From an uncultured Pseudomonas sp. (lineage in GTDB: Bacteria > Pseudomonadota > Gammaproteobacteria > Pseudomonadales > Pseudomonadaceae), in contig NZ_CAMPHV010000002.1 of NCBI RefSeq assembly GCF_946886105.1, forward strand, positions 145,328 to 209,327: a DNA stretch of 64,000 nucleotides. The letters are read 5' to 3'. The number at the start of each line of letters is the position of its first letter. Within the stretch, counting starts at the first letter, position 1. Shown here piece by piece: positions 37,968 through 42,226 of the stretch. The position numbers and the translations under genes are program-made. The notes under the pieces are model-generated. The model was not told where the DNA came from, made no database searches, and saw nothing but the letters and a program-made list of their open reading frames with translations.

Positions 37968-39107
37968 TTACACCTGAATCCGTTTCATATAACTGTCGAA
38001 GGCCTGCAGATAGCGCGGGATGGGCATCAGAAAGGCGTCGTGGCCTTGCGGCGCGTCGATTTCCAGGTAGCAGACGTTCTTGCGTGCGGCGGTCAGCGCA
38101 TCGACGATTTCACGCGAGCGCGCGGGCGAAAAGCGCCAGTCGGTGGTGAAGGACATCACGCAGAAATCCGCGCTGACATGGGCCAGGGTCTTGGCCAGGT
38201 CGCCGTCGTGGCTGGCTGCCGGGTCGAAGTAGTCGAGGGCCTTGGTCATCAGCAGGTAGGTGTTGGCGTCGAAACGCCCGGAAAACTCCTCGCCCTGATA
38301 GCGCAAGTAGCTCTCGACCTGGAACTCGACGCTGTGGAAGTCGTAGTTGAGCTTCTCGCTCTTCAGCCCCCGGCCGAATTTCTCGCCCATGGCGTCGTCG
38401 GACAGGTAGGTGATATGGCCGACCATGCGCGCCAGCATCAAGCCGCGCTTGGGAATCACCCCGTGCTCCTGGAAGTGCCCGCCATGGAATTGCGGATCGG
38501 TGAGAATCGCCTGGCGCGCCACTTCGTTGAAGGCGATGTTCTGCGCCGAGAGCTTGGGCGCTGAGGCGATGGCCAGGCAGTGGCGGATACGTTCGGGATA
38601 GCTGATCGCCCATTGCATGGCCTGCATACCGCCGAGGCTGCCGCCGATCACCGCGGCCCATTGCGCGATACCCAGGTTGTCGGCCAGACGCGCCTGGCTG
38701 TTGACCCAGTCTTCCACGGTCATCACCGGGAAGTCCGCGCCGAACGGCTTGCCGGTGTCCGGGTTGACGCTGCTGGGGCCGGTCGAGCCGTTGCAGCCGC
38801 CGAGGTTGTTCAGGCTGACGACGAAAAACTTATTGGTGTCGATGGGCTTGCCGGGGCCGATGCAGCTGTCCCACCAGCCAGGTTTGCGATCTTCCGCGCT
38901 GTGATAGCCGGCGGCATGGTGATGGCCGGACAAGGCATGGCAGATCAGCACCGCATTGCTGCGCGCCGCGTTCAACTCGCCATAGGTTTCGAAAATCAGT
39001 TGATAGCCGGCCAGGCTACGCCCGCACGCCAGCGCCAGGGGTTCGGCGAAATGCGCCACCTGGGGCATTACCAGGCCAACAGAGTCTGAAGGAAAGGCAG
39101 TCGGCAT
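37968..39107 (-). CDS. metX: Homoserine O-succinyltransferase MetX
   Basis: A 379-residue alpha/beta hydrolase-fold acyltransferase. The nucleophile elbow is [13 protein letters not shown] near residue 147 and the catalytic histidine is in [10 protein letters not shown] near the C-terminus. In Pseudomonas this MetX type uses succinyl-CoA to activate homoserine for methionine synthesis. The start at 39107 (MPTAFPSDS) was selected; the longer frame from 39185 has no ribosome site. Upstream lies the divergent structured-RNA locus. Confidence 0.95.
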
Positions 39108-39320
39108 TGACCCTGCTCTTATAAAGAAAAAAATGGGCAATCTTGCTAGAGGCAGCAGTCTAAAGAGCGTCACCTCACGCGGCAAGCATGTGGAGGTGGA
39201 CTTGCCAGGCTGGCGAGGGTCAATTTCGAGAGCAGATATTGGTTACGCCGCTGACTCTTGAAGCGCTTGCCCGTGGTATGTACAGGAGTTAAAGTCCGCC
39301 CGTCGCGGTCAATCCCGTGA
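39108..39320. other. Divergent intergenic region upstream of metX and the structured RNA locus
   Basis: About 210 bp without coding potential between the metX start (minus strand) and the first target hairpin of the plus-strand RNA locus. It must contain the promoters of both. On the plus strand TTGCCC, 16 bp and TTAAAG (about 39267-39294) is a weak candidate for the RNA promoter. No SAM riboswitch-like fold was recognised before metX. Confidence 0.4.
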
Positions 39321-39321
39321 C

Positions 39322-39337
39322 CGGGAGTCGAAACCCG
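39322..39337 (+). promoter_or_regulatory. Upstream antisense-target hairpin (seqA-like)
   Basis: CGGG (39322-39325), loop AGTCGAAA (39326-39333), CCCG (39334-39337). Seven loop bases (GTCGAAA) are complementary to TTTCGAC at 39470-39476 of the predicted RNA, and the pairing extends to CGGG on the 5' side with one mismatch. The position, upstream of the RNA, corresponds to seqA of phage P4 immunity. Confidence 0.6.
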
Positions 39338-39359
39338 TGTGTTGTCTGAGGCGCGAGAG

Positions 39360-39419
39360 CGCCATAGCCGCTAAGCAGTGGGCATTTCGTATGCCTGCTA
39401 TTTACGCGCTCCTATGGCG
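39360..39419 (+). ncRNA. Structured segment immediately 5' of the C4-like RNA
   Basis: CGCCATAG (39360-39367) is a perfect inverted match to CTATGGCG (39412-39419). Inside, AGCAGTGGGCAT and ATGCCTGCT can pair imperfectly. The whole segment ends one base before the C4-like core, so it could shape processing of the RNA's 5' end. Confidence 0.45.
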
Positions 39420-39420
39420 G

Positions 39421-39487
39421 ACCGTGCGGGGCAGGCCTTTGGCCTGGCCGGTTCCCTCGGACGCCGGTATTTCGACCCCCGTACGGT
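39421..39487 (+). ncRNA. C4/CI-like antisense RNA (phage immunity type)
   Basis: The 67 nt fold as a closed multi-branch structure. An outer 11-bp helix (39421-39431 with 39477-39487, one G-U pair) encloses hairpin CAGGCC-TTT-GGCCTG (39432-39446) and hairpin CCGG ... CCGG (39448-39467), leaving TATTTCGAC single-stranded. This is the layout of the P1/P7 C4 and P4 CI RNAs, where the exposed segment pairs with targets flanking the RNA and stops expression of the genes downstream. Two matching targets are present here at 39322-39337 and 39496-39515. I recognise the family from structure and sequence feel; a covariance search (Rfam C4) would settle it. Confidence 0.7.
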
Positions 39488-39495
39488 TCGCCCAC

Positions 39496-39515
39496 CCACC
39501 GAGTCGAAACGGTGG
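39496..39515 (+). promoter_or_regulatory. Downstream antisense-target hairpin (seqC-like)
   Basis: CCACCG (39496-39501), loop AGTCGAAA (39502-39509), CGGTGG (39510-39515): a perfect 6-bp stem showing the same 8-base loop as the upstream hairpin. Complementary to TTTCGAC of the RNA at 39470-39476. It lies between the RNA and the downstream reading frames. Confidence 0.6.
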
Positions 39516-39553
39516 TCGGCGATTCCTTAATCCGTTCGAGGAGCATAAGGAAA

Positions 39554-39637
39554 ATGTGCTATCCCCCTTTTACCCAAGGGCTCCGCCTTGGGCAGCACCC
39601 CGTGACGCTGGCTCCCAGCTTGGAGGTGTGCTCATGA
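39554..39637 (+). CDS. 27-residue leader ORF coupled to the gene at 39634
   Basis: ATG at 39554 is preceded by GAGGAGCATAAGGAAA, a strong ribosome site, and encodes MCYPPFTQGLRLGQHPVTLA plus seven residues. Its TGA (39635-39637) overlaps the ATG of the next gene (ATGA), suggesting translational coupling. The frame spans a 7-bp hairpin, CCCAAGG / CCTTGGG (39573-39592). It may be a leader peptide or a small Kil/Icd-type product; translation is inferred only from the signals. Confidence 0.45.
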   Translation: MCYPPFTQGLRLGQHPVTLAPSLEVCS

Positions 39638-39903
39638 CCACAGTCCCCGCAGCTGTTATTCCCTTCCCCAAACGCTTGGATATCGAGGTATTGTCTGTGC
39701 CTGGGGCCTGTCCTCTTCAGGCTGCCGCGGAGCAACGAATGCTGATACTGCAAAACCTGTTCAAGGTCTTGCAGCATTCGGACAGTTCCACCTTCAGCCA
39801 TACGCAACTGCGCGAGGCCTGTCAAAAGGCTCGGGAGATGCTCAGTGAAGTCGTACTGCTGTATCGCGGTTCGTTGGCGCAAGCGGAAAGCGGACGTGGC
39901 TAA
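39634..39903 (+). CDS. Small protein of unknown function downstream of the C4-like RNA
   Basis: An 89-residue protein, MTTVPAAVIPFPKRLDIEVL at the N-terminus, then a helical-looking half (AEQRMLILQNLFKVLQ and REACQKAREMLSEVVLLYR). No signal peptide or transmembrane helix, and no motif I recognise. It has GGAGG seven bases before the ATG and overlaps the leader ORF. Its 3' end is followed by a terminator at 39988-40021, so leader RNA, antisense RNA and this gene form one transcription unit. In phages P1 and P4 the genes in this position are small toxic or regulatory proteins (Icd, Kil, Eta); similarity to those is not visible. Confidence 0.65.
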   Translation: MTTVPAAVIPFPKRLDIEVLSVPGACPLQAAAEQRMLILQNLFKVLQHSDSSTFSHTQLREACQKAREMLSEVVLLYRGSLAQAESGRG

Positions 39904-39987
39904 ATAGCCTCGACATCCGCTAGTTGCCGGCCCATGACGGTCATCGTGACGCATTCATCAAGTGGCCGGTTACTACTTAATTAGAAC

Positions 39988-40021
39988 ACTCCGAAAAAGC
40001 GGACTTTTTCAGAGTCTTCTT
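39988..40021 (+). terminator. Terminator between convergent genes
   Basis: ACTCCGAAAAAG (39988-39999) pairs with CTTTTTCAGAGT (40004-40015), one mismatch, followed by CTTCTT. It ends the transcript of the 89-residue gene; with A-run and T-run arms it may act on both strands for the convergent dynamin-like gene. Confidence 0.65.
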
Positions 40022-40044: not shown

Positions 40045-42027
40045 TTATTCGCCGCCGCTTTGGCTCCAGGCGCCGGTCGGCAGGTTGACCACCTTGCCTT
40101 GACGCTGGATAGGCGCGGGGCGGCGCATGGCGCGGAGCATTTCGTTGGCTTGGGCCAGTTGCTGTTCCAGCTCGGCGCAGTAGCGCGCCAGTTGCTGGCT
40201 GCGTTGGCGGGTTTGCTGGGTTTCCTGGGCCAGGGCCTTGAGTCGCAACATATGGGTCTCAAGCAACTGCTTGTGTTCGAGGCTGTGCTGCATCAGCGGC
40301 AGCAAGGTGCTGTTGGCCCATTGCTCGGCCTCCACGCGCAGGCGTTGATGCAGGCCGATCACTTCCTGCACCAGGGTGGCGAAGAAGCGCCGGGTCACCG
40401 CGCGTTGTTCGGTGAACAGGGTTTTCACATGCAGGCGGAACTGGTCGGCTTTGTTGCGTAGTTGGAGCAGTTCGCGCATGTAACGGTCGGCATTGAACTG
40501 CGGCGCATCGATGCCCTGTAGCGGATTTTCCTCGTTATGCCGGCGATACACGGCCGCAACCATCTTGTTGGCCATCTCGGCTTCCTGGCCGAGGTGGTGC
40601 AAATCGTCTTCCAGCGAGTTGAAGAAGTGCAGGATGGCCTGGTTGATACCGACCGTGGTCCAGCTTTCGCTGAGGTTCTTGCGCACCTTGTCCAGATGCT
40701 TTTGCAGGCACTCGGGCCGGGTGCGCGCGCGCAGCGGTTCGGCCTGCCGGGCCAGCAGGCGTTGGTTGCTCTTCAGGCCGAGCAGGCGCTTGTGGTGCTG
40801 GCTGTGGTCTTCCTTGGTCTTGGCGGTCAGTTCGAACAGCAACTGGCCCTTGTCGTGCTGGTGGTTGCTAAGCAGCGCTTGCTGCTCGTTGACCTTCTGC
40901 AGGCGCAGGCTGAGCACGTGTTGGCTGTTCTGCAGCAGGCTCAGCACCTGGTTGACCACGCTGTCTTCGATCAGTCGTTCCTTCTGGGTGACGATGCGCT
41001 CGCAGAGCAGGTCTTCCAGGTTGTTCATCTGGCTGCGGATCAACAAATCCGTGTCTTTGCGCACCTTGGCCAGCAGGGCCTGCTTGGCCGACAGCGGCAG
41101 CACGTCTTCGGGCTTGATGCCGAGCTGCTTGGCGGTGGTGCGTTGAATGCGTTGGATGGCGTTCTGCACGAAGGCTTCGCCGGCCAGATCGTCCCAGAGC
41201 ACGTCGATCTTGTTCAGCACGGCGAACAGACTGGTCTGGCTGTCTTCCGCGAGGTGGCGGATGTGCTGCTGCCAGATCTCCATGTCGCTGGCGGTGATCC
41301 CTGCGTCGGCGGACAGCATGAAGATGATCGCCTGGGCGTTGGGCAGCATCGACAGGGTCAGTTCGGGCTCGCTGCCCAAGGCATTCAGGCCGGGCGTGTC
41401 GAGGATGCGCAGGCCTTGGCGCAGCAGCGGGTGGTCGAAGTTGACCATGGCGTGGCGCCAGGCCGGTACCAGGACCTGGCCGGGTTTGCCGGCGCTTTCC
41501 AGCATGTCGGGGTGGAAGCCCAGCTGAATCGCCTGCTCCACCGGCATCGACTTGCTTTTCGCCACCTGGGTAAAGGCTTGGACCATATTGTCCGGGTCGC
41601 TGAGGTCCAGGGGGATGTTCACCCAGTGCCGGGGAATGCGTTTGAACTGCGCGACGCTGGCTTCGGCGACGCGGGTTTCGATCGGCAGCAAGCGGATATA
41701 GGAGCGTTCCGAACGCGGGTCGAAGAACAGCTCGGTGGGGCACATGGTGGTGCGCCCGGCTTGCGACGGCAGCATGCGCTGGCCGTATTCGGAGAAGAAC
41801 AGGCTGTTGATCAGTTCGGTCTTGCCGCGGGAGAACTCGCCGACGAACGCCAGGGTGATGTGGTCGGTGCGCAACAGTTTGAGCGCGCGTTCGAGCTTGG
41901 CCTCCACCGCTTCCGAGTTGAGGCGGTTGTTCACCAGCCAGCTGCGGTAACGGGTGATCTGGCGCATCAGTTCGCGCTTCCAGGCGACGTAGATATCAAC
42001 CTGTTGACTCAGACGTTGCATGCTCAT
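40045..42027 (-). CDS. Dynamin-like GTPase family protein
   Basis: A 660-residue large GTPase. G1 is GEFSRGKT at residues 63-70, G2-like threonines in GRTTMCPTE at 91-99, G3 DTPG at 210-213 and G4 NKID at 272-275. Long helical, coiled-coil-prone stretches follow (about 300-640), as in the stalk of bacterial dynamin-like proteins that remodel membranes. There is no obvious transmembrane paddle and no second dynamin gene next to it, unlike paired Dlp systems. The start at 42027 (MSMQRLSQ) has AAGGAAG upstream. Functions suggested for such proteins include membrane repair and phage defence; which applies is unknown. Confidence 0.82.
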   Translation of the reverse strand: MSMQRLSQQVDIYVAWKRELMRQITRYRSWLVNNRLNSEAVEAKLERALKLLRTDHITLAFVGEFSRGKTELINSLFFSEYGQRMLPSQAGRTTMCPTELFFDPRSERSYIRLLPIETRVAEASVAQFKRIPRHWVNIPLDLSDPDNMVQAFTQVAKSKSMPVEQAIQLGFHPDMLESAGKPGQVLVPAWRHAMVNFDHPLLRQGLRILDTPGLNALGSEPELTLSMLPNAQAIIFMLSADAGITASDMEIWQQHIRHLAEDSQTSLFAVLNKIDVLWDDLAGEAFVQNAIQRIQRTTAKQLGIKPEDVLPLSAKQALLAKVRKDTDLLIRSQMNNLEDLLCERIVTQKERLIEDSVVNQVLSLLQNSQHVLSLRLQKVNEQQALLSNHQHDKGQLLFELTAKTKEDHSQHHKRLLGLKSNQRLLARQAEPLRARTRPECLQKHLDKVRKNLSESWTTVGINQAILHFFNSLEDDLHHLGQEAEMANKMVAAVYRRHNEENPLQGIDAPQFNADRYMRELLQLRNKADQFRLHVKTLFTEQRAVTRRFFATLVQEVIGLHQRLRVEAEQWANSTLLPLMQHSLEHKQLLETHMLRLKALAQETQQTRQRSQQLARYCAELEQQLAQANEMLRAMRRPAPIQRQGKVVNLPTGAWSQSGGE

Positions 42028-42226
42028 CCTGGTCTTCCTTTTTGGCGGCGCTTCCGTGCGCAAAACCTTATGCGGGTTTTCGCGGATTCGGCAGTAATTC
42101 GACAGAGTGCGCGGCGCTGGTCATACACCGTCAAAGCCAGTAACCGTGCGTTCTGCAACCCCCGCATTATGGAGCTATTGACAATGCCGTCAATTGGCCT
42201 GCATCACAGTCCCGCCTTAAGGTCGG

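Follow-up and report, generated by a model that had tools for sequence, protein, structure and literature searches.

Why does an RNA known from phage immunity lie between two chromosomal genes of a Pseudomonas? The stretch analysed here (the window) is 64,000 nucleotides (nt) long and comes from an uncultured Pseudomonas sp. (contig NZ_CAMPHV010000002.1, positions 145,328 to 209,327). An initial annotation, made from the sequence alone, had proposed a C4/CI-type antisense module between metX and a dynamin-like GTPase gene, and had suggested a covariance search with the Rfam model of C4 antisense RNA (RF01695). When this search was run, the model matched positions 39410-39499 of the forward strand with 64.8 bits (gathering score, 45; E 2.6e-11). 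In a scan of the whole window, this was the sole match above any Rfam gathering score. The segment 39410-39499 is a true C4 RNA, as had been claimed. We consider it very probable that metX and the dynamin-like gene are separated here by an inserted cassette that works as a C4-type antisense attenuator. The RNA and its targets are arranged as follows.

39267..39295, + strand: promoter-like element TTGCCC-N17-TAAAGT, just 5' of the first target hairpin (putative; motif match).
39289..39341, + strand: c4-a1b1 element resembling P4 seqA, which contains target a1 at 39327-39333 (RF03163, 43.7 bits, below its gathering score).
39343..39351, + strand: target b1, partner of loop b' (duplex score 20.0).
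39410..39499, + strand: C4 antisense RNA, resembling P4 seqB/CI (RF01695; fold z-score -5.40).
39454..39462, + strand: antisense loop b', which pairs with b1 and b2.
39470..39476, + strand: antisense segment a', exact 7-nt complement of a1 and a2.
39496..39515, + strand: hairpin displaying target a2 at 39503-39509, resembling P4 seqC (a hairpin of the initial annotation).
39533..39541, + strand: target b2, running into the Shine-Dalgarno sequence (39539-39551) of a leader open reading frame (ORF) (duplex score 22.5).

The minimum free energy (MFE) of the C4 RNA is -54.6 kcal/mol, and none of 200 shuffled sequences was equally stable. The MFE structure consists of a closing helix and two inner hairpins, and the a' segment is single-stranded. 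The two inner hairpins and the exposed segment described earlier were therefore reproduced, but the closing helix has 16 bp in the MFE structure instead of the 11 bp given before. Hairpins with a loop complementary to the exposed segment had been placed on either side of the RNA. This is correct: a' is TTTCGAC, and GTCGAAA is present at both a1 and a2. The second antisense loop, b', had been overlooked. Among 81 target regions tried against the b' loop of the window, its own b2 gave the top duplex score.

What would such an RNA control? Three features follow the targets.

39554..39637, + strand: leader ORF of 27 amino acids (aa), MCYPPFTQGLRLG..., with an ATGA overlap with the next start (similar leaders in loci L084, L086, L091 and L093).
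39634..39903, + strand: 89-aa 'IPFP' protein P0001, predicted helical hairpin (family alignment; AlphaFold).
39892..39970, + strand: 5' stub of qslA; start codon lost, in-frame stop, body missing (alignment to L093).

The ATGA overlap bears out the earlier statement that a leader ORF is coupled to a protein of 89 residues. A family-alignment search with IPFP found 267 homologues, and a Pfam domain was present in none of the 120 of those listed. The AlphaFold model (predicted local distance difference test, 76.8; predicted template modelling score, 0.53) gives the helical hairpin at moderate confidence, and no significant fold match to the predicted structure was found. From the end of the IPFP gene onwards, 79 nt align with the beginning of L093 qslA at 75% DNA identity (E 6e-14 in a comparison of a 171-nt segment); the match then stops. 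In a tblastn search of the whole window, the stub was detected as 18 aa with 72% identity (E 8e-5), and downstream of the IPFP gene no intact qslA was found. The cassette has C4, a similar leader ORF and the IPFP gene, as in the C4-IPFP-qslA cassettes of Pseudomonas. Judged by these alignments, it is of the leader-IPFP-qslA type and has lost qslA apart from the 5' stub. IPFP may act together with QslA as a small regulatory protein. After the cassette, an inverted repeat (CTCCGAAAAAG...CTTTTTCAGAG, 39989-40014) was seen by eye; it is a putative terminator shared with the convergent dynamin gene.

We propose the following mechanism. Transcription would start near 39295 and yield a single transcript that carries a1/b1, the C4 RNA, a2/b2, the leader ORF and the overlapping IPFP gene. 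The C4 RNA would be freed from this transcript, as in P1 (RNase P). Freed C4 RNA would pair through a' with a2 and through b' with b2. Because b2 lies at the Shine-Dalgarno sequence, bound C4 RNA would cover the ribosome-binding site of the leader, and the leader would not be translated; through the ATGA overlap, translation of IPFP would be blocked as well, by analogy with P1/P7 and P4. RNA that is not covered by translation would, as in P1 and P4, probably terminate early, and pairing with upstream a1/b1 may tune the control. The cassette most likely keeps the small protein gene silent.

This proposal leans on known systems. In P1/P7, the icd-ant operon has a short first ORF that is coupled to the next gene, and the window likewise has a short leader ORF coupled to the next gene. 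The fold and the loops a' and b' are those of P1/P7 C4 RNA, and here, as in P1/P7, b' extends to the ribosome-binding site of the target (PMC5320573). The locus differs from P1/P7 in three respects: an antirepressor gene is lacking, the target belongs to a chromosomal gene for a small protein, and of all parts of the RNA it is b' that varies most. The order target, RNA, target in one transcript is that of the P4 CI RNA (PMC4825925); unlike in P4, no replication genes adjoin the locus, and termination would be by analogy. The AUGA overlap between leader and next start is shared with IsrK-orf45-anrP of Gifsy-1, and IsrK has been termed a structural homologue of P4 SeqA (PMC4825925). Weak isrK-like matches were found upstream of C4. 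However, IsrK activates translation in trans, within a prophage (PMC4825925).

Multicopy C4-like RNAs are already known from Acinetobacter. In A. baumannii, Weiss et al. found C4-like small RNAs (sRNAs) that occur in multiple copies and are apparently processed, and proposed phage or bacterial targets for them (PMC5320573). The Group 1 RNAs resemble the Pseudomonas family in having many copies per chromosome; their variable region is a' according to the alignment and a' plus b' according to the discussion (PMC5320573). Unlike the targets proposed for them, the adjacent cis targets in Pseudomonas co-vary with both loops (see below). Weinberg et al. listed C4 and c4-a1b1 for Proteobacteria and phages (PMC2864571). 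C4 RNA also occurs in IncI-type plasmids (L081:559-646 of R64, 72.4 bits; L082:2985-3073, 68.3 bits), with weak a1b1-like matches (32.9 bits in L081, 25.5 bits in L082). There it lies upstream of annotated traA (L082) or a similar unannotated ORF (R64), ahead of a NusG-like regulator.

If C4 RNA regulates the adjacent gene, its loops would be expected to fit their own targets. The input of the pairing test was 101 loci: the window, L083-L142 (mostly top C4 matches) and L177-L216, which are 35 of the 36 C4 matches of genome G016 and 5 of the 10 of G009. Two loci could not be parsed, and removal of repeated loop pairs left 81 distinct loop pairs. For b' against the downstream region, the cognate mean was 21.8 and the non-cognate mean 13.5 (area under the curve (AUC) 0.953); the highest of 2000 permutation means was 14.7, and the own downstream target was best or tied in 58 of the 81. 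For a', the values were 17.4 and 12.8 (AUC 0.922). The upstream targets gave AUCs of 0.925 (a') and 0.894 (b'). In all four loop-target combinations, the cognate mean lay above every one of 2000 permutation means. The window's own target ranked first of 81 in both downstream pairings and about fifth in both upstream ones. Judged by these scores, C4 loops co-vary with their own targets.

The position of b2 is also regular. It scored at least 16 in 77 of the 81 loci, where it starts 27-44 nt past C4 and overlaps a Shine-Dalgarno-like motif in 64. A start codon with such a motif was found 42-62 nt past C4 in 71 of 81 loci (search range, 30-75 nt after C4); the figure for a 45-nt control window was 9 of 81. 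Across the 81 loci, C4 varies most in loop b' (mean 1.37 bits, against 0.15-0.90 elsewhere), and double-sided changes occur in 10 of 19 predicted C4 pairs among 34 chosen sequences. The promoter-like motif, which was defined after inspection of upstream sequences, is present in 34 of 81 upstream windows, including that of our locus, and in none of 79 downstream windows (shuffles: mean 1.7, maximum 6). In 79 of 81 loci, the closing helix has a GG-type motif close to its 5' end; the pattern is loose, and the motif also lies within the conserved stem. It would fit the RNase P site that has been described for the C4 RNAs of P1/P7 and Acinetobacter (PMC5320573).

These data bear on the idea, also put forward for the Acinetobacter Group 1 RNAs, that C4 RNA acts chiefly in trans on other mRNAs. 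C4 works as a processed RNA in P1 (PMC5320573), and in G016 the score of a non-cognate b' pairing equals or beats that of the cognate one in 77 of 1190 cases. Nevertheless, the 58 b' loops that fit their own downstream target best or tied, the narrow spacing from C4 to the start codon and the lack of a second C4 within the 64-kb window make action chiefly in trans improbable.

How widespread are such cassettes? In the genus of genome G001, the source of P. anguilliseptica locus L001, 367 of 398 genomes contain C4. In this survey up to 10 candidates were scored per genome, a ceiling that many of the listed genomes attain, and its copy numbers are lower bounds. Across the order, 20 of 145 genomes carry C4, 18 of them in one to three copies; none of 14 control genomes does. 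When eight genomes were scored more deeply (up to 150 candidates each), 126 C4 matches were obtained, 124 of them above the cut-off, with 1 to 39 per genome. The 36 matches of G016 are dispersed over the chromosome (contig of 6,493,931 bases), and 33 distinct b' and 20 distinct a' loops occur among the 35 that were tested. By these searches, dispersed C4 cassettes form a large family in Pseudomonas, to which the locus in the window belongs. R178 (101 bp, with an internal 11-bp inverted repeat; 18, 28 and 9 copies in three strains) and R200 (320 bp) are repeats of P. fluorescens (PMC2718517); they could be C4 cassettes.

The genes downstream fall into recurring families. Among the 126 matches in the eight genomes, 74 are followed within 1 kb on the same strand by a DUF6124 or DUF3077 gene (median distance 198 nt), and four by qslA. 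Counted in reverse, C4 lies upstream of 74 of 88 DUF6124/DUF3077 loci; 0.2 pairs would be expected by chance. At the 20 best of 30 qslA loci, C4 was found upstream in all 20, each also with a c4-a1b1 match at E<=0.01 (above the cut-off in 10). Eight of 12 further, hand-picked qslA loci have C4, giving 28 of 32 examined. Of the 398 genomes of the genus, 88 carry qslA itself, as do 70 of 348 at family level. In 16 genomes, half of which were chosen for carrying qslA, 29 of 31 IPFP matches are followed by qslA, and 29 of 33 qslA matches (including two from G016) are preceded by IPFP; the order in these relatives is C4, leader, IPFP, qslA. That C4 is linked to DUF6124/DUF3077 and to most of the qslA genes looked at points to regulation of the adjacent gene. 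From the sequence comparisons, the other cassettes of the family are mostly best matched to their own target and precede DUF6124/DUF3077 genes or IPFP-qslA operons. Many C4 loci (L100, L102, L107, L111, L117 and others) begin with an ORF of 52-54 aa (MHALNPSKIRAAAHRAMALAALHANSSL... and similar), beyond which a DUF3077-like ORF lies in L101, L102 and L138. The Rfam P10 sRNA was seen near qslA in two loci (L165:1992-2063 and L152:1-70).

QslA (Pfam PF18226; structure 4NG2) is a LasR-specific antiactivator according to Pfam and an anti-activator acting on MvfR according to PMC6068238; the available part of the latter names no antisense RNA for QslA. The window resembles the QslA operons in the C4-leader-IPFP order and differs from them in retaining the qslA stub only. 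With about 38% identity to 4NG2, the C4-linked QslA of L084 gives no grounds for assuming LasR binding. Among the matches listed from open-licence literature, no title or abstract joined C4 to DUF6124/DUF3077 or QslA.

Is the cassette part of this chromosomal site? Both flanks named by the initial annotation were identified on the minus strand.

37968..39101, - strand: metX, homoserine O-succinyltransferase (NCBIfam NF047916, 698 bits; start codon set from orthologues).
40045..42063, - strand: dynamin-like GTPase gene (weak NCBIfam GTPase and LeoA-type dynamin-like matches below cut-off; conserved neighbour of metX).

For comparison, 80 loci with a dynamin-like relative were used (Pseudomonas, Stutzerimonas, and Pseudomonadaceae or gammaproteobacterial metagenome-assembled genomes; best identity 84%). 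The metX-dynamin gap could be measured in 76 of them. It is 89-256 nt in 71 and 385-975 nt in five, as compared with about 0.94 kb in the window. C4 was not found in the five long gaps, which are filled by other insertions, and the 89-aa protein had no tblastn match (E 1e-3) in any of the 80 loci. Because the gap is too short or otherwise filled in all 76 measurable relatives, the C4 cassette is accessory at this site; by this comparison it is an insertion. The suggestion that the locus was retained in the Pseudomonas core genome is thus not supported by this comparison, which had been proposed along with it. By the genome survey, what is genus-wide is the dispersed cassette family and not the C4 locus at this site. 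By eye, the gaps of L026, L029 and L056 hold a different insertion of about 0.85 kb with a putative small gene and a putative P-loop kinase-like gene on the minus strand, and a miniature inverted-repeat transposable element-like sequence with GGGTCTGTTCCC ends seems to be inserted in L062 and L002.

The initial annotation had favoured a domesticated phage-immunity or superinfection-exclusion switch, kept to block incoming phages with the same targets. The RNA family is indeed shared with P1/P7 c4, and by eye primase- or AlpA-like genes lie beside some Pseudomonas C4 loci (L083, L085 and L090). The scanned surroundings are not of this kind. We compared 20 of the 23 larger non-overlapping ORFs of 26.7-51.3 kb with PHROGs (E 1e-5). 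Four matched: one tRNA methyltransferase, which is MetW in Pfam, and three of unknown function, one of which is a T2SSE-type ATPase in Pfam. Several neighbours were identified by Pfam as MetW, Ham1, YggT, P5C reductase and T2SSE-type proteins, and a 188-aa frame across the locus gave a single weak PHROG match (E 0.017). Among the 20 ORFs there were no integrase, capsid or replication families, in agreement with the earlier statement that no prophage surrounds the locus. The phage, satellite or plasmid setting of P1/P7/P4 immunity, with antirepressor, kil or replication genes, was likewise not seen there. With one tblastn query each against 50,697 phage records, IPFP and DUF3077 had no match and DUF6124 had one (L217, EU982300, a prophage record in which the match lies at the end beside prtR). 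Relatives from the IPFP alignment were not found in viral contigs, nor was a convincing phage DNA match to the locus. Together with the recurring downstream families and the lack of conservation at the metX-dynamin site, this makes a phage-immunity switch unlikely.

Several points weigh against an attenuator of the adjacent gene. The c4-a1b1 match is below its gathering score (46.7; E 8.9e-9). C4 release and early termination at this locus would follow by analogy. Neither DUF6124/DUF3077 nor qslA lies downstream of 48 of the 126 C4 matches, and C4 is absent from all four divergent qslA loci examined (L247-L250), which were taken from a low-scoring class with many more matches. The pairing test drew mostly on high-scoring C4 matches. 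Within G016, the own target is uniquely best for b' in 23 of 35 loci (tied in 3) and for a' in just 3 of 35 (tied in 12), and the cross pairings described above belong here too. Finally, the cassette is partly decayed. The stub of qslA and the absence of the insertion from measurable relatives would also suit a decaying, non-functional relic of an IPFP-qslA cassette. However, C4, both loops, the four targets, the leader, the coupling and the 89-aa ORF are all intact, and the aligned part of close homologues shows 94% and 79% identity. We therefore regard a relic as rather unlikely.

The locus is best read as accessory and as an antisense attenuator whose target is a small protein, probably a regulatory one. 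Architecture and co-variation are established at the level of sequence; the regulation itself is what we infer. More tentatively, and with considerable doubt, the C4 attenuators of a Pseudomonas genome, up to about 39 in number, may form a distributed set in which the b' loops are largely distinct and every member gates a single small helical regulator; the QslA-type anti-activators would be the best understood of these. The logic of phage immunity, in which an arriving cassette is kept silent when a resident has the same code and is expressed otherwise, might then have become a general, horizontally shuffled format of gene regulation. In any case, chromosomal C4 RNAs gain concrete candidate targets. 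A phage immunity RNA is tied to the QslA family of anti-activators of quorum sensing and to DUF6124/DUF3077, two families whose names mark them only as unknown. For tests of specificity, one genome would provide dozens of natural antisense pairs.
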